The position numbers and the translations under genes are program-made. Source: a virus. From it: a stretch of DNA of 27,176 nt. The stretch spans positions 1 through 27,176 of the IMG/VR virus record IMGVR_UViG_3300017763_000142; one strand, 5' to 3'. Positions 1,711 through 13,062 of the stretch are shown in pieces. The notes below the pieces were generated by a model. It saw only the letters and a program-made list of their open reading frames with translations, did no database searches and had not been told where the DNA came from. Each line of letters begins with the position of its first letter. Position 1 is the stretch's first letter.

Positions 1711-3530
1711 TAGAATCCTGTATCCTCCGTTGTAATTGGTCTGAATGCACCTTCTCCCATGTCTTCACCAAATTCATCACTGAACTGACTAAAGTTTGGA
1801 TCACCGGGGTTTGATGATTGTTCAAATTCAGAAAGGTAATCATTTGCAAATACTGGTGTGAGTTCAGTAAAGTTTAGATTCATAACAGTTCTAATTGGTG
1901 AAGATCCTGCCTTCGAGTCATCATATGATTGATAAACATTATCAGGGGCATAGTTTATCTCACATGTGGTCAAAGCACATATTTTGTGCATTGGTAAACC
2001 TTTGATCCTATCTCTTTGTTTTGTTCTGTATCTCAATCTGAATATATTTGGAGATCCTAAGAATATTAAATTCTCATTACTCCTTTTAGGTGCCATTCCC
2101 TGTTTGAAGAATCTTTGTATTTTTCTCATCACAGAAGCATCTAATTCATCATTGGGGGCAAAATTGAATGAAAAACTGAAACTTCTCAATTTTGGACCAT
2201 TGAATAGAAGTTCTAGGTTTGGGTTGATTGCTTGACCTACTCCTCTTTGAATAAACTGATTGGCATCAACGTTTATACCTATTCTTCCCAATGCAAATTG
2301 TGAAGCAAATGCTGATAGGAGAACTCCTGCCGGTTCAGAACGTGACAATTCTCCACTCCGTATATCTTTCAAAAGTTGTCCTGTATTATTCATACCATTT
2401 TTCATCGCTCCTGCAATGTCTCCATTAATAGCTTCTGAAATTGTACTATTTGCAGTAAGAAATGCTGCTGCTTCTACTGCATTTATTCTACCATCCCCCC
2501 AAGAAACACCATTTGAAAAACTTAGATTATTAGGAATGGGCATTCTACACACACCTATAAACTCTTTTATATTAGAGACTCTTCTAAGTCCTCTTAGATT
2601 GAGGGTTGCTTTTTTTTGTTGTATAGAAAATGAGTCTGACTGTGAACCTTGATACTGGAACTGCTCTATCACAATATGATCCTGTCCTGCTACACCCCCA
2701 CCACCATAAACTGCATCATGTGGGTATTTCAGTGATAGTATACCTCCTCCAAATACACCAAAAGATTCTTTGAATTGCTCTGGAGCATTATCAAAGGTGT
2801 TCAATAATGGTTCAAAATTCAAATTGTAGGGGGTGTCATCATCTCTGCCATCACTGACTTCAATTTTTTCAATTGTATCATTATCATCTAAAACTTCTGA
2901 AAAAAACTCTTTTTGCAGGTCTTCAGGTAAACCTTTTACATGTTCGGGGGTATATTGCCCCAACACGTCTGAATTAGGTAAACCTAATTGAGTATGATCT
3001 ATATCTTTATTAACTATCTTTTCAAATAGTGCACCAACTTCAGGATTATTTGCTTTTAGTTTTTTTATTAATTCATTCTTATCTTTTTTTTCTTTGGTTG
3101 CATACAAATCGAGTTGCACCAATTGAAAATGTACAGCATGAGAAAAGTTTGGATGATTTTTTATAAACTCATATGCTTGTTGATCTTTTCCACCATCATT
3201 TTGGACACCGGGTTGATAAGTGCCAATACTTGTGCCCGCATTATTGAATAAATTATGAGGAAATCTGGTATTTTGGAATCCATATTTAGGATCAAGTAAT
3301 CCAAAAGTTTCACTTGCGGGGTCTAAATCTATTCTACCTTCATATCTTTGTGCACCTTCCCCAGTTATGCCCTGCAAACCTTCGAGATCGGGCAATCCTC
3401 CAACAACATTAATTCCATCAGGTACACCATCACCATTTGGGATGTATACTTGAATTATTCCAGTTGGTCTGTAAAAGAAATCATCAGGTTGAAGTTGCAA
3501 ACCCGGCATCGGTTGATTATCTTCACTCAT
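1710..3530 (-). CDS. 48: gp48-like baseplate tail-tube cap protein, enlarged
   Basis: This protein has 606 aa, against 364 in T4 gp48. The C-terminal part (about residues 430-570) carries the tube-like core: GPKLRSFSFSFNFAPND, then a helix (MRKIQRFFKQGM), FLGSPNIFRLRYRTKQRDRI and LTTCEINYAPDNVYQS, ending in NLNFTELTPVF. This order fits gp48/gp54/gp19-type tail-tube folds, where gp48 sits on the hub and starts tube polymerisation. The N-terminal 250 residues are an acidic, Gly/Pro-rich extension with no recognised domain. Its start overlaps the upstream stop by 1 nt and its stop overlaps gp53. gp54 shares this fold, so a swapped 48/54 label is possible. Confidence 0.75.
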   Translation of the reverse strand: MSEDNQPMPGLQLQPDDFFYRPTGIIQVYIPNGDGVPDGINVVGGLPDLEGLQGITGEGAQRYEGRIDLDPASETFGLLDPKYGFQNTRFPHNLFNNAGTSIGTYQPGVQNDGGKDQQAYEFIKNHPNFSHAVHFQLVQLDLYATKEKKDKNELIKKLKANNPEVGALFEKIVNKDIDHTQLGLPNSDVLGQYTPEHVKGLPEDLQKEFFSEVLDDNDTIEKIEVSDGRDDDTPYNLNFEPLLNTFDNAPEQFKESFGVFGGGILSLKYPHDAVYGGGGVAGQDHIVIEQFQYQGSQSDSFSIQQKKATLNLRGLRRVSNIKEFIGVCRMPIPNNLSFSNGVSWGDGRINAVEAAAFLTANSTISEAINGDIAGAMKNGMNNTGQLLKDIRSGELSRSEPAGVLLSAFASQFALGRIGINVDANQFIQRGVGQAINPNLELLFNGPKLRSFSFSFNFAPNDELDASVMRKIQRFFKQGMAPKRSNENLIFLGSPNIFRLRYRTKQRDRIKGLPMHKICALTTCEINYAPDNVYQSYDDSKAGSSPIRTVMNLNFTELTPVFANDYLSEFEQSSNPGDPNFSQFSDEFGEDMGEGAFRPITTEDTGF

Positions 3531-7310: not shown

Positions 7311-8758
7311 ACATAGGTACACTGCTGAATAAAAGAACTTTACTGGTTTCAACATCACAGAGACTCAATACCCTTTTGAGGAAAAGTTATAGGGTAGATA
7401 TAACTTCAAAAACATTATTACTCGAAAAAAAGAAAAAACTAAGTGATGTAAGAGCAAAAACATTTGCTGCATTAGGTAGACAGAAGGAGGACGATGGTGG
7501 TGGATTATTTGGAATAGGTGCCGGTATAGGTGGTGGAGCATCATTGCTTAGAGGAATGAGAGGGAAACCAAAAGTTACTAGAGGAATTGGTGGTAAAGTT
7601 AGAGGACTTGGAAAACTAAGCAAAACAAACGTTGTTTTGAACACTGCTTTTACAGCAGCAGATTTTATGGGTCGTAAGAAGTCTGGTCAAACTAATTTAC
7701 AAGCAGGTGTAGGTGCAGGAGCAGGATTATTAGGTGGTCTTGGAGGATTCTCTGCAGGTGCTAAGATAGGAGGGTCTATAGGAGCACTCGGTGGTCCATT
7801 AGGAATTGCTGTGGGTGGTTTGATAGGTGGTGCCATTGGTGGGTTTGCTGGATCTTCACTTGCAAGTGGTGCTGCAGATAGAGCGACTGGTGTCACAGGA
7901 TCAGAATTCAGAAGGAAAGAATTAGAAAGACAAGAAATAACAACTACTCAAAGAACTGAGTTTACTGCAGGTTTAGATAGTTTTGATAGGGCACTTGATA
8001 AATTTAGAAAATACGATGAAGATCAAAAAACTTTTATATTACGTGCTACAGGCAGAGATAGAGATAATCAGGCGATAAAACCTACTATATTTTCTCCATT
8101 TGGCGGTGGTGGTGCTAGTCAAAGTGATGTAGATAAGGCATATAGAAGAGGTATTGCCACTGGTGTGTATAGAACAGTTGGGGGAGTTTTATTAGTTGCA
8201 GCAGCAGTAAAGGGTGGTGCAATTCTACTCAAAAAGAAAAGTCTCGCTTTTGTAGTTAAGAAACTGTCTCAAGTTACTAGGGGGTCTAGATCCATGGGAC
8301 TCATGGGTATTGGAAAAGGTATGAAGTTCCCTAAAACTGATCTTGGAGCGTTATTTGGTAGGGGAAGAAAGGTAAATAAGGTGCTCATGACAAAACCAAA
8401 ATTCAAGATAACAAGATCTAGAAATAAAGTAAGAAACAGGAAAGTTCTAAAAGGTCAGGATAAAGTGACTTTTAGTGATAAATTTGATATAAAGAAGATT
8501 ACAGGTGTAAAAATAAATGAAATTAAAAAATCTTTGAAAGTATTAGAAAGATTCAATAATAAAATGAATAAAACTATAAACCCAAAGAAGAAAACATTTC
8601 AAAAATCATTGAATTTATTCAAGAAAAATAAAACTAATTCCAATAAAGGTCCAGATCTTAGTAGTCTAGGTGGTGGTAATACCATAGCGTTTGCTTCTGA
8701 AGATCCTTACTTGGGCACAATAAATAGTATCAAGGCGTATAGTGAGTTGACGGTATAA
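7307..8758 (+). CDS. Tape-measure-like tail protein, Gly-zipper (second of two)
   Basis: This 483-aa, strongly basic protein has a Lys-rich N-terminus (residues 30-50), a first Gly-rich run near 63-85, and a long glycine zipper at about 132-190 (AGVGAGAGLLGGLGGFSAGA and on). A second hydrophobic helix lies at about 281-320 (GIATGVYRTVGGVLLVAAAV). The last 150 residues are very rich in Lys and Arg. Glycine zippers like this occur in tail tape-measure proteins that insert into membranes during DNA delivery. It overlaps the preceding gene by ATGA and the gp27 start by TAATG. Together the pair (883 aa) may take the place of T4 gp28/gp29; this is inference from composition and position. Confidence 0.6.
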   Translation: MNIGTLLNKRTLLVSTSQRLNTLLRKSYRVDITSKTLLLEKKKKLSDVRAKTFAALGRQKEDDGGGLFGIGAGIGGGASLLRGMRGKPKVTRGIGGKVRGLGKLSKTNVVLNTAFTAADFMGRKKSGQTNLQAGVGAGAGLLGGLGGFSAGAKIGGSIGALGGPLGIAVGGLIGGAIGGFAGSSLASGAADRATGVTGSEFRRKELERQEITTTQRTEFTAGLDSFDRALDKFRKYDEDQKTFILRATGRDRDNQAIKPTIFSPFGGGGASQSDVDKAYRRGIATGVYRTVGGVLLVAAAVKGGAILLKKKSLAFVVKKLSQVTRGSRSMGLMGIGKGMKFPKTDLGALFGRGRKVNKVLMTKPKFKITRSRNKVRNRKVLKGQDKVTFSDKFDIKKITGVKINEIKKSLKVLERFNNKMNKTINPKKKTFQKSLNLFKKNKTNSNKGPDLSSLGGGNTIAFASEDPYLGTINSIKAYSELTV

Positions 8759-10074
8759 TGAGTTATTCTAGAGGAGCAAAGATAAAGTTCTGCACCGTCA
8801 GTACACCTGATGACACTGAACAAGTTGTACTCACTGAGCAATTAGGACCGATTCAGTTCTATGAAGACATGATAGATGCTTCTTTTCATGTAGAGATTAT
8901 GGTGTTTGATACTGCAGGTAAATTAGGCACTACACCAATAAGAAGTGGATCTAAAGTATTTCTTCGTATAGAAACTCCTTCTGGTGTCATAGACTTTGAG
9001 AAGGAACCTCTATTCATCAGTAATATCAAGACTTCTGGTAGCACCGCGAAGAAAGAATTCTTTGTAATGCAACTTGAATCCAAAGGCACATTCATAAATC
9101 ATTTCTCTAGAATATATAAGAGATATGATAGTAAAGCAAATATATTAGTTGAGAAATTCCTAAAGGAAGATTTAGAAATATCAGGCGATAAAATTTTAGA
9201 AATCGAGGAACCATCTAACTCAATATCATTCTGTGGCAACTATAAGAGACCATTGCAGACCTGTGTTAGTTTGGCAACAAAATCCATACCTAATATTGGA
9301 ACAAAACAAAATATAACAAGAGGTGGATCTGGATTTTTCTTTTGGGAAACATTGAAGGGATATAACTTTAGAAGTCCTGATGGTATATTCAAACAGATAA
9401 TAGACGATAAAGATAGTATACCAGTATACGAAAAGGTAGCATCATTCAACGCACTGGATCCAGAAAATGATTTTCATATAGTTGATGAACCATCATGGTC
9501 TAATAATGATAATTTACTTGAAAAATTATCACTAGGTCAGTATGCTGCATATAACACCTTCTTTGATATCAATGCAAGAAAGCATGTCGTAGCAGAGCGA
9601 GAGGACGATAAATCAGCAATACACGAGTATAAACCAACATCACAACAAGAAAGTGGTGAAAATGCCACAACATTATCAAATGAACAACCATTTGTACCAA
9701 ACTTTAAAAATTTTACAAGAAGAAGCAAAGAACTTCCTTCGAGGTACTTATTTTCATTTGTTGATCGTGGAACCTATACAAATGACTTGACTACACCACA
9801 GGAGCATGTAGAATATGAAGCGAAGAGGCAATCACGTTATGCAGCACTATTCTCACAAACATTGATGATTACAGTGCCCATGAATGTACAGTTATCCGCA
9901 GGTTCTGTGGTAAAGGTCAAATTTCCTCGAATAAATATAGATAGACCCAACAGTGGTAGTAATAACTCTGCTAGTGGGTACTATATGATCAAATCACTGT
10001 CTCACCAACTAGGATCTCAAGGTGACTTCACCGGACTGAAATTAGTAAGAGACGCTTATTCCAAACTATCATGA
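8758..10074 (+). CDS. 27: gp27 baseplate hub subunit
   Basis: This protein has 438 aa (T4 gp27 has 391). It shows two tube-like beta domains split by an inserted region. Visible segments are TEQLGPIQFYEDMIDASFHV, the middle GGSGFFFWETLKGYNFRSPD (the gp27 insertion with its FxxWETxxG pattern), and near the end LMITVPMNVQLSAGSVVKVK with GYYMIKSLSHQLG. gp27 forms the trimeric ring that adapts the six-fold tube to the three-fold gp5 spike, which fits the gp5-like OB-fold gene encoded shortly downstream. Its stop overlaps the CP12-like start by 4 nt (ATGA). Confidence 0.85.
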   Translation: MSYSRGAKIKFCTVSTPDDTEQVVLTEQLGPIQFYEDMIDASFHVEIMVFDTAGKLGTTPIRSGSKVFLRIETPSGVIDFEKEPLFISNIKTSGSTAKKEFFVMQLESKGTFINHFSRIYKRYDSKANILVEKFLKEDLEISGDKILEIEEPSNSISFCGNYKRPLQTCVSLATKSIPNIGTKQNITRGGSGFFFWETLKGYNFRSPDGIFKQIIDDKDSIPVYEKVASFNALDPENDFHIVDEPSWSNNDNLLEKLSLGQYAAYNTFFDINARKHVVAEREDDKSAIHEYKPTSQQESGENATTLSNEQPFVPNFKNFTRRSKELPSRYLFSFVDRGTYTNDLTTPQEHVEYEAKRQSRYAALFSQTLMITVPMNVQLSAGSVVKVKFPRINIDRPNSGSNNSASGYYMIKSLSHQLGSQGDFTGLKLVRDAYSKLS

Positions 10075-10298
10075 AAAGTATCGAAGACCATATCAAAAAG
10101 GATAAGGAGATCATCGATGATCCACAAGCAAACCCTGCTGCTAGAAGACATGCAAAAGAAGAATTGCATGATCTACAAGAATATGTCGGACATCACAAAG
10201 AAGAGATCGAAGCAGGAGATCACCATGATCCTAATGCATTAGAACTATTCTGTGATATGCATCCTGACGAACCCGAATGTTTAGTATACGACGATTAA
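10071..10298 (+). CDS. CP12-like small protein inside the baseplate operon
   Basis: This 75-aa hydrophilic protein ends NALELFCDMHPDEPECLVYDD (residues 55-75). That matches the C-terminal half of cyanobacterial CP12, which closes with FxxYCxxNPxxxEC(L/R)xYDD; the C61-x8-C70 spacing is exact. CP12 uses this loop and its redox disulphide to bind GAPDH, while the N-terminal Cys pair and helices bind phosphoribulokinase. Here the N-terminal pair is absent (KEIIDDPQANPAARRHAKEE) and the AWDxVEEL core has become RHAKEELHDL. The gene overlaps gp27 by ATGA and the next gene starts straight after its stop, so it is co-expressed with the hub. It could redirect host carbon flux or have become a structural peptide. 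Confidence 0.7.
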   Translation: MKSIEDHIKKDKEIIDDPQANPAARRHAKEELHDLQEYVGHHKEEIEAGDHHDPNALELFCDMHPDEPECLVYDD

Positions 10299-12242
10299 AT
10301 GGCACTTGAGTCTCGTCTGAATAAAATACATTTTGCTGGTCACGATGGCACTATGACCTTTGTGGGTCAGGTGACTACTGATGCAGCTTGGCGAGAGCAT
10401 CATAAGGATTATGGTTATCGAGTCAAGGTAAGAATATATGGGAAACATCCCCCATCAAACGTTCTATCTGATGAGAAATTGCCATGGGCACATGTTTCAG
10501 TGCCATGCACTTTTGGTGCAGGTAATTCACATGCAGGCACCTCATTATGCCTACAGGGTGGAGAAACCGTTCATGGATACTTTGCTGACGGAGAAGATGC
10601 ACAGATTCCTATAATACTGGGAGCATTTCAAACTGAATTTTCAATTCAAAATCGAATACCATACCTAATAGCGTCTAATGACAGTTCTCAGTTTTATGAA
10701 CTGTTTGCTAAAGAGGGATTAGAATGGTCTGCACTGAATGACAATGGTGGAAATCCCGGTGCTGACAACGGTGTAAACATTGCTAAGTTTGATAAGAAAC
10801 AGAATATCCTTGACGAAGAAAAGATAATTCTCAAAAAAGCACAGAAGTGTAAGACTGGTGGTTTTCTAAGTGAGGTTTCAAGATCTTTAGCATCATTCAT
10901 TGAAGTTACAAATGGATTGAGTAAACTTGAAGACACGTATATTGATCCTATAATGGATGAAATTAGGGATGTGCAAGATCTTGTAAGAACAACATCACAA
11001 GTCATATCTGGAGCATATTCTCAAGTTATAAGATTAGCAAGAAAGTATTTGTTTGACAAGATCTATAAGTTAGTTGAGCAACTTATGGGTTTCTTACAAC
11101 TCGATAGTTTATTGAAAGACATTGCTGTCAAGAAAGCAGTCGATCAAATCTATTGTGTCATAGAAAACATTATAAAGAGTCTACAGAAGGTTTTAGAGGA
11201 CTTCTTGACAGGATTGATAGGTAAACTTGTACAAGCACCTTTATGTGCTGCAGAACAGTTTTTAGCAGGGTTGAACACAAAATTGTTCAATGATATCGAA
11301 AGCAAAATTGGCGATGCACTAAGTTCTATCTCAGGAATACTTGGACCTATTGGATCGTTCATGGGTTTCCTTGATAAAGCAATGAACTATGCTCAGATAG
11401 GTCTAAAGTTACTATCATGCGAAGATACAGACTGTCCTCCAGAACCTTATGACTGGGCACTAAACTTCGGTCCTACAAAGCAGGATAAAATAAATTTCAA
11501 AAAGACAATCGATATATCATCTAAGTTTGATGCTATCGGTATTGGAAGATCAGTCAATGATAGAATTGATAAATTTTTCGGATTGGATGAAGATGATCTT
11601 GCAAATGCAGAAAAAGTTGCAGCGATTGTTGGAGACTGTCCTATAGATCAGAAGATATGTGGTGCTCCTAAGATAGAGATTTTTGGTGGCGGAGGAATTG
11701 GAGCAGCAGCAAACGCTGTTATCAATGAGTTTGGTTCTATCGTGGGTGTTAACATGACTGATCTAGGAGTAGGTTATACTTCAAAACCATATGTAAGTAT
11801 TCTTGACAATTGTGGAGGCAATGGTGCCGAAGGTGAAGCAATTCTCAAGGATGGTCAGGTTATTAATATTATAATAAGAAGAGGTGGTGGAGGATATCAA
11901 ACTCCTATCAATGTTTCCGATGGAGAAGGAACTGATGTAGTTGGTGAGATAGAGGGCGTGGAGATAATAAGAACAGGTAGAGAATATAAACCGGATGATA
12001 TCATAACAAGTCAATGTGGACAACTGAAAGTCAGATTAGACGACGCAGGAAGAATCATTGGTGCTACAGTTATTTCTGCTCATAAAGGTTGTAAAGTCAT
12101 TCCTGATCTATCAATAAATACAGAGACTGGTTATGGAGCACTTGTGAGACCTATTATGAGATACAGAAAAGTAGAAGATTATGATTCAACGATTCCTGCA
12201 GATGGAATCATGAGGGTTGTTGATTGTGTGAGTAGTTACTAA
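10299..12242 (+). CDS. 5: gp5-like hub OB-fold protein without a visible lysozyme domain
   Basis: This 647-aa protein has an N-terminal 120 residues that match the OB-fold of T4 gp5: MTFVGQVTTDAAWREHHKDY, then GYRVKVRIYGKHPPSN, EKLPWAHVSVPCTFGAG, GETVHGYFADGEDAQIPIIL. That domain mounts the spike on gp27. A T4-lysozyme domain should follow but I see none. Instead residues about 170-370 are alpha-helical (SLASFIEVTNGLSKLEDTYI and on), with a Cys-rich linker near 375-385. The C-terminus (about 460-640) is Gly-rich beta with two copies of a GxGYxxxPxV motif (LGVGYTSKPYVSI and RGGGGYQTPINVS). The middle may form a helical sheath or a different enzyme. ATG follows the upstream stop directly. Confidence 0.78.
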   Translation: MALESRLNKIHFAGHDGTMTFVGQVTTDAAWREHHKDYGYRVKVRIYGKHPPSNVLSDEKLPWAHVSVPCTFGAGNSHAGTSLCLQGGETVHGYFADGEDAQIPIILGAFQTEFSIQNRIPYLIASNDSSQFYELFAKEGLEWSALNDNGGNPGADNGVNIAKFDKKQNILDEEKIILKKAQKCKTGGFLSEVSRSLASFIEVTNGLSKLEDTYIDPIMDEIRDVQDLVRTTSQVISGAYSQVIRLARKYLFDKIYKLVEQLMGFLQLDSLLKDIAVKKAVDQIYCVIENIIKSLQKVLEDFLTGLIGKLVQAPLCAAEQFLAGLNTKLFNDIESKIGDALSSISGILGPIGSFMGFLDKAMNYAQIGLKLLSCEDTDCPPEPYDWALNFGPTKQDKINFKKTIDISSKFDAIGIGRSVNDRIDKFFGLDEDDLANAEKVAAIVGDCPIDQKICGAPKIEIFGGGGIGAAANAVINEFGSIVGVNMTDLGVGYTSKPYVSILDNCGGNGAEGEAILKDGQVINIIIRRGGGGYQTPINVSDGEGTDVVGEIEGVEIIRTGREYKPDDIITSQCGQLKVRLDDAGRIIGATVISAHKGCKVIPDLSINTETGYGALVRPIMRYRKVEDYDSTIPADGIMRVVDCVSSY

Positions 12243-12802
12243 TGGAAAGGAAAACACCACCATTAGTCATAAACACTCCCGAAGATGGGTTTCTTAGAGT
12301 TGGATTGAATACTGATGCTAAAACATCTCGTCCTGATCAAGTTCAATTGGCAGGTGGTTGTGGAGCAAGTCTTAGAATATTTGACGATGGTGGATGGGAA
12401 CTAAGATCCGTAAACAGACCCGGCAAACCAAATAAAAAGGGTTGTAATATAATAGCAAGAGGAGAAGGTGGGTTACAAATATATTCAGATGGTGATGTTA
12501 ACATAGATGCAAAAGGTGATTTCAATGTATCTGCAAGAAACATTACAATGGAAACCACTGCAGATGATGGTGACTTTACTGTATTCTGTAAAAGAGACAT
12601 AATGCTTGATGCAGACAATAACTTCAAAGCATATGGAACGAAATGTGTTATCACAGCATCAGATACTATGATCACACATTCAACAGGTTGGAATCTTATA
12701 GTGGGTAATCCAGTATATGTTTACGAGAAGAAATCCAAACTTATACCAACCAGCACATCAGATATCGTCAACAGTCTACTTGAAAACTTTATGTTATCAT
12801 GA
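12242..12802 (+). CDS. Central-spike beta-helix protein (gp5 C-terminal-like)
   Basis: In this 186-aa protein, residues about 75-150 are a run of short, alternating strands (GGLQIYSDGDVNIDAKGDFN, then VSARNITMETTADDGDFTVF). This is the pattern of the intertwined trimeric beta-helix at the end of T4 gp5 and VgrG needles. The N-terminal 70 residues are rich in Gly, Asn and Pro (GFLRVGLNTDAKTSRPDQVQ) and may anchor it to the gp5-like protein encoded just before (1-nt overlap, TAATG). In T4 one polypeptide carries OB-fold, lysozyme and needle; here needle and OB-fold seem to be separate genes. The role as spike needle is inferred from repeat pattern and position. Confidence 0.65.
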   Translation: MERKTPPLVINTPEDGFLRVGLNTDAKTSRPDQVQLAGGCGASLRIFDDGGWELRSVNRPGKPNKKGCNIIARGEGGLQIYSDGDVNIDAKGDFNVSARNITMETTADDGDFTVFCKRDIMLDADNNFKAYGTKCVITASDTMITHSTGWNLIVGNPVYVYEKKSKLIPTSTSDIVNSLLENFMLS

Positions 12803-13062
12803 TTCTATTCTCTTTTATTATATCATTATTTGCTAATCATTTACCTGTGATGTATGTTCAGGTGCCACAGTGGGCAGATGATTGGGCAGTGTGTGCAGTA
12901 GATGTACCTGATGCTAAGTGTCATTGGTATGTCATGTCACCTGACAATACCTTCGGTGAAGGTTTTGATTGGGAAGAAGCACCATGGTTCGATGCTAATG
13001 GACTAAATGATATAGCACCCATGCAGGAAAAAACAGTCGTGCAAAAACTACAGGAAAACTAA
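12799..13062 (+). CDS. Small Trp-rich protein with exported-like N-terminus, unknown function
   Basis: This 87-aa protein overlaps both neighbours (ATGA at the front, TAATG at the end). The N-terminal 12 residues are hydrophobic (MILFSFIISLFA), suggesting a signal or membrane segment; an in-frame ATG at 12850 would give a soluble 70-aa form starting MYVQVPQWADDWAVCAVDVP. The body is acidic and rich in Trp (five) with two cysteines eight residues apart (C32, C41). It lies between spike and fibre genes, so a virion or assembly role is plausible. No family recognised. Confidence 0.65.
   Translation: MILFSFIISLFANHLPVMYVQVPQWADDWAVCAVDVPDAKCHWYVMSPDNTFGEGFDWEEAPWFDANGLNDIAPMQEKTVVQKLQEN

Follow-up and report, generated by a model that had tools for sequence, protein, structure and literature searches.

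Why a gene resembling CP12 should lie among the tail hub genes of a virus, and why its product lacks the N-terminal cysteine pair, are the questions raised by a short ORF in a 27-kb virus fragment, IMG/VR record IMGVR_UViG_3300017763_000142 (27,176 nt, part of a genome only; hereafter the window). CP12, a small protein, is believed to shut down carbon fixation in the host, and classical CP12 clamps PRK. The features of the locus are collected in Table 1.

Table 1 Features of the cp12 locus in the window
Feature	Position	Strand	Evidence
gp27-like tail/hub gene	8758..10074	+	phrog_350 tail protein, E 1.5e-66
ATAAATA late-promoter-like element	8720..8726	+	pattern match; 31 nt upstream of gp27-like start
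cp12 gene, 75-aa phage CP12	10071..10298	+	PF02672, E 2.6e-13; phrog_627, E 4.6e-39
AKEELHDL at the place of the AWDxVEEL core	10152..10175	+	alignment with 6gfo chain E; helix 22-41 predicted
C-terminal C-x8-C loop (Cys61-Cys70, GAPDH-docking end), then YDD	10251..10280	+	sequence; alignment with 6gfo, 3zdf and 3b1j CP12 chains
gp5-like baseplate hub/tail lysozyme-type gene	10299..12242	+	phrog_1922, E 4.7e-75; phrog_694, E 2.3e-19

The cp12 ORF begins with ATG, its start shares 4 nt (ATGA) with the stop of the gp27-like gene, and the gp5-like ORF starts at the base immediately after the cp12 stop, in agreement with the overlap and abutment given in the preliminary description. The label gp27 is based on the tail-protein family phrog_350 and the label gp5 on hub/lysozyme families; with these neighbors and the profile matches, the placing of a CP12-like gene in a tail hub operon holds. 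A profile search, proposed beforehand as a check, gave a significant match to Pfam PF02672 (CP12) of 50.9 bits, well above the cut-off of 22.7 and covering profile positions 4–70 of 70, and the match to phrog_627 (cyanophage CP12) spans the full length of the protein; the E values of the two matches rule out a chance resemblance to CP12. All matches up to E 1 came from cyanophage or marine-virus records, and no significant match was found to homologues in non-cyanobacterial phages, a Vibrio phage at E 3 being noise.

Cys61 and Cys70 are the sole cysteines of the window protein, and the chain ends in YDD, so that the C-x8-C loop and YDD end, the missing N-terminal pair and the missing AWDxVEEL core were all described correctly at the outset. 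AKEELHDL aligns with AWDALEEL of the 6gfo CP12 chain, and the protein matches the CP12 chains of the solved GAPDH–CP12 structures (6gfo, 3zdf and 3b1j), best over the C-terminal 20 residues. Classical CP12 (6gfo/6gve chains, plants) shares with the phage form the GAPDH-docking C-x8-C-x2-Y-D-D/N end but has both an N-terminal cysteine pair and the AWD_VEE core, whereas the phage form has neither; a form with the C-terminal pair only, as in the window protein, is labelled CP12-C in PMC3906501. Cyanophage CP12s (T4-GC 337; phrog_627; including P-SSM4, S-SM2 and P-RSM6) are 50–92% identical to the window protein over the copies compared, are mostly 75 aa long with the longer linker and the C-terminal pair only (present in 101/101 full-length phage copies), carry a similar NPAARRH/NPQMRRH segment and in most cases have the same hub neighborhood. 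The N-terminal half specific to phages (NPAARRH plus a linker longer by 5 aa) is strongly conserved among them. By its sequence, then, the window ORF is an ordinary cyanophage CP12, a member of a known family, differing from most cyanophage copies in its 4-nt overlap with gp27 and in having no TAAATA 24–39 nt upstream.

An AlphaFold2 model of the window CP12 (mean pLDDT 82.8, with confidence lowest at the C-terminal end) is composed of helices 4–16 and 22–41 and two short C-terminal helices, and carries no information on GAPDH contact. The model retains a helix at the place of AWDxVEEL, where the motif itself is replaced. The best match in a viral structure library was cyanophage S-T4 CP12 (E 3.6e-4), and a search of PDB structures with the model gave no significant match.

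The tail-hub operon is a common and known site of cp12 in T4-like cyanophages. The direct order gp27-like/cp12/gp5 is annotated in S-SM2, Bellamy, ACG-2014e, S-CAM4, S-RSM4, S-CAM9 and Sf-CH5, while cpeT, tRNAs or other small genes come before gp5 in P-RSM6, P-SSM4, Syn19, QB2, P-TIM40, S-RIM8, ACG-2014d and S-SZBM1; cp12 lies outside the hub site in P-HM2, where it is beside talC, and in P-TIM68, S-SRM01 and P-SSM2. Among 84 cp12 loci (80 of them IMG/VR contigs, all selected by CP12 similarity, the window copy counted), a gp27-like neighbor was found in 66 and a gp5 neighbor in 62, contig ends cutting many of the rest, and each of 371 phage records has cp12 at one place, although the genome of the window, covered here over 27 kb, may carry a second copy. 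The suggested survey of genes spacing gp27 and gp5 thus found cp12 to be a frequent occupant of this site, but the location is not new: at least seven isolates carry the annotation, and in 2010 Sullivan et al. (PMC3037559) had located cp12 either "near gp5" or within the psbA region.

Several contigs assigned to other organisms also carry the arrangement. Matches labelled Euryarchaeota, Anaerolineales and Nonlabens were rejected as non-cyanobacterial CP12s because their contigs bear hub genes of cyanophage type and seem to stem from mis-binning or contamination. Four contigs from Euryarchaeota or Anaerolineales MAGs (L085, L086, L087 and L090) have cyanophage-type gp27/cp12/gp5 and have probably been mis-binned; of the relatives found, L085 stands nearest to the window (gp27 57%, gp5 68%), and its cp12 runs straight on from gp27 as in the window. 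The 188-kb flavobacterial contig of Nonlabens xiamenensis 1Q3 (NZ_RMVE01000006.1) has cyanophage hub genes with cp12 around 3001–3225, the DNA directly upstream of cp12 being almost identical to that of cyanophage P-TIM40, and looks like a cyanophage contaminant. In the Prochlorococcus single-cell genome AG-418-C09 (L089 and L092), a host cp12 occurs together with a phage-type cp12 situated on a 189-kb contig, suggesting that the cell was infected. L089 carries, about 1.9 kb upstream of cp12, a 77% homologue of a further window ORF (12799–13062, 87 aa), which matches phrog_14182 ("esterase") at nearly full length, an odd name for a protein of this small size.

Across 53 distinct hubs, the median identity of the gp27-like protein was 24.5%, and that of CP12 was 84% for protein and 76% for DNA, the CP12 figure being inflated by the selection of hub loci on CP12 similarity. 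Substitutions in cp12 indicate that it is under strong purifying selection with no recent sweep, rather than recently copied, because dS is mostly saturated, dN is about 0.08–0.12 and four-fold sites of phage cp12 are 45% identical to those of the window. The distances of cp12 and gp27 are only moderately correlated (Mantel r 0.50, p 0.001), a value that fits long residence together with a degree of exchange; an origin of the high identity in recent movement of cp12 between phages was rejected for most pairs on the grounds of saturated dS and correlated gp27 distances.

These observations make it very probable that the gene is a CP12 auxiliary metabolic gene long resident at a conserved tail-hub site of T4-like cyanophages. 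A quite different reading, taken up from the preliminary description, would make the phage protein a specialized truncation, its N-terminal cysteines lost so that GAPDH capture would no longer depend on PRK or redox control; the window protein, with its C-terminal pair only, is what such a truncation would look like. We compared it with 72 host-family CP12s, taken from host-family genomes that were reached via Prochlorococcus single-cell genomes, and selected by the C-terminal pattern, so that paralogues with only the N-terminal pair would escape. Neither the N-terminal pair nor AWD occurs in any of the 72, five of which have a single cysteine in an extension upstream of the likely start. The CP12 of marine picocyanobacteria (Prochlorococcus/Synechococcus) is very similar to the phage form in its C-terminal half and likewise has no N-terminal pair and no AWDxVEEL; it differs in its N-terminal half (SAKAxGNxxKVRHLTEELH), and the 5-aa linker insertion of the phage form is absent from most host copies. 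A tree built from 67 phage and 71 host CP12s (77 columns, with many other forks unresolved) places all phage sequences in one clade with 100/100 support, adjoining two host CP12s that have the longer phage-type linker HHKEEIEAGDHHDP. These two come from host-family genomes L091 (Prochlorococcus AG-402-N21, with cp12 near an Obg-type GTPase gene) and L157, and would either stand for the lineage that gave cp12 to the phages or reflect passage of the gene from phage to host. A review (PMC3906501) likewise describes a marine picoplankton group that lacks the classical protein and names cyanophages as one of the exceptions. The notion of a special phage form is thereby largely refuted, and we consider it highly improbable; since the host-family proteins also have neither the N-terminal pair nor AWD and the phage clade stands beside them, the simplest reading is that phage CP12 was inherited in this state with no phage modification.

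Residence at the hub might instead reflect a role for the protein itself, either packaged in the virion, as suggested earlier, or active in hub assembly, which would explain the fixed place between gp27 and gp5. The site is indeed conserved across hubs whose gp27-like proteins share about 25% identity, as is the phage-specific N-terminal half. In S-SZBM1, however, where CP12 (SSZBM1_64) adjoins the gp27-like SSZBM1_65, the table of 30 virion proteins contains _65 and not _64 (PMC9146016), moderate evidence given that the missing protein is of 70–75 aa and the method mass spectrometry; CP12 is also not among the six non-structural proteins named in the S-CREM2 virion proteome. Some phages, moreover, place cp12 elsewhere, as P-HM2 does, and the C-terminal GAPDH end is conserved, a feature for which a structural role would have no use. 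Packaging is therefore disfavored, and a packaged or hub-building CP12 has very little to recommend it over an auxiliary metabolic gene. It is similarly far-fetched that the N-terminal half of hub-located CP12 gained a second late role, in hub assembly or in holding GAPDH at assembly sites, though if it did, a single 75-aa protein would tie Calvin-cycle shutdown to virion production.

The time at which the gene is expressed is less settled. A TAAATA core lies 24–39 nt upstream of the cp12 start in 87/100 phage loci (5.2% at random places), and before cp12 in 23 of the 33 groups whose upstream sequences are unrelated; it precedes gp27 in 12/71 and gp5 in 14/82. PMC2984593 gives the cyanophage late motif as NATAAATA, and since many upstream copies read TTAAATA or CTAAATA, the element is late-promoter-like but inexact. 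It overlaps the gp27 stop codon in the largest group and is absent before cp12 in the window and in twelve further loci, S-SM2, Bellamy and Sf-CH5 among them; in several of the loci without it, cp12 overlaps or nearly abuts gp27. In the window, the ATAAATA upstream of the gp27-like gene would drive gp27-cp12-gp5. The total count of ATAAATA in the window is at chance level, with no excess; the copies at 8720, 15273, 20642 and 25359 lie within about 40 nt upstream of the + strand ORF starts at 8758, 15282, 20673 and 25395, where late promoters would be expected to sit.

The late timing proposed in the preliminary description is thus plausible for hub-type phages from these motifs, but only in part sustained, in that the cp12 of P-HM2, with ATAAATA upstream, is a middle-class gene highly expressed in light infection (PMC5082946); the motif alone is therefore insufficient for late expression. 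It is possible, if the less likely course, that cp12 in hub-type phages has an earlier promoter of its own and is expressed with the middle genes as in P-HM2, a reading that concerns timing only and is favored also by the early and late promoters that S-PM2 middle genes are thought to possess (PMC2984593). Any such promoter in the window must lie within the gp27 coding sequence, and a scan of the region for sigma-70-like promoters gave matches at chance level with no excess; the promoter-like spacing of TAAATA in most phage loci also argues against it.

The analysis bears directly on family membership, ancestry, conservation and context; for the action on GAPDH and PRK we infer from known CP12 biology. 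The oxidized C-terminal loop would enter the active site of the host photosynthetic GAPDH (Gap2) and keep it inactive, and clamping of PRK as in classical CP12 is probably absent because the protein has no N-terminal cysteine pair and no AWDxVEEL core. It is thus a fair inference that the protein docks on GAPDH and leaves PRK uncontrolled, PRK binding by phage CP12 being expected to be weak or absent. The predicted effect is a slowed Calvin cycle, with the pentose phosphate pathway favored during infection; the Calvin cycle is inhibited in infected cells (PMC5082946). Judged by gene overlap and motif position, the window cp12 probably shares its transcript with gp27 and gp5, its translation being probably coupled to that of gp27, and CP12 would therefore be made with or shortly before the virion proteins.

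Both the presence of CP12 in cyanophages and the position of its gene near gp5 were thus already known. The absence of the N-terminal cysteines is a trait of the marine host lineage, and because phages share it with those hosts, a phage-specialized truncation is an unsuitable description of phage CP12. In most hub-type phages, a well-placed late-promoter-like element at cp12 stands against the published middle timing in P-HM2, and should late timing of hub-type cp12 be borne out, the moment at which carbon fixation is shut down would vary among phages.
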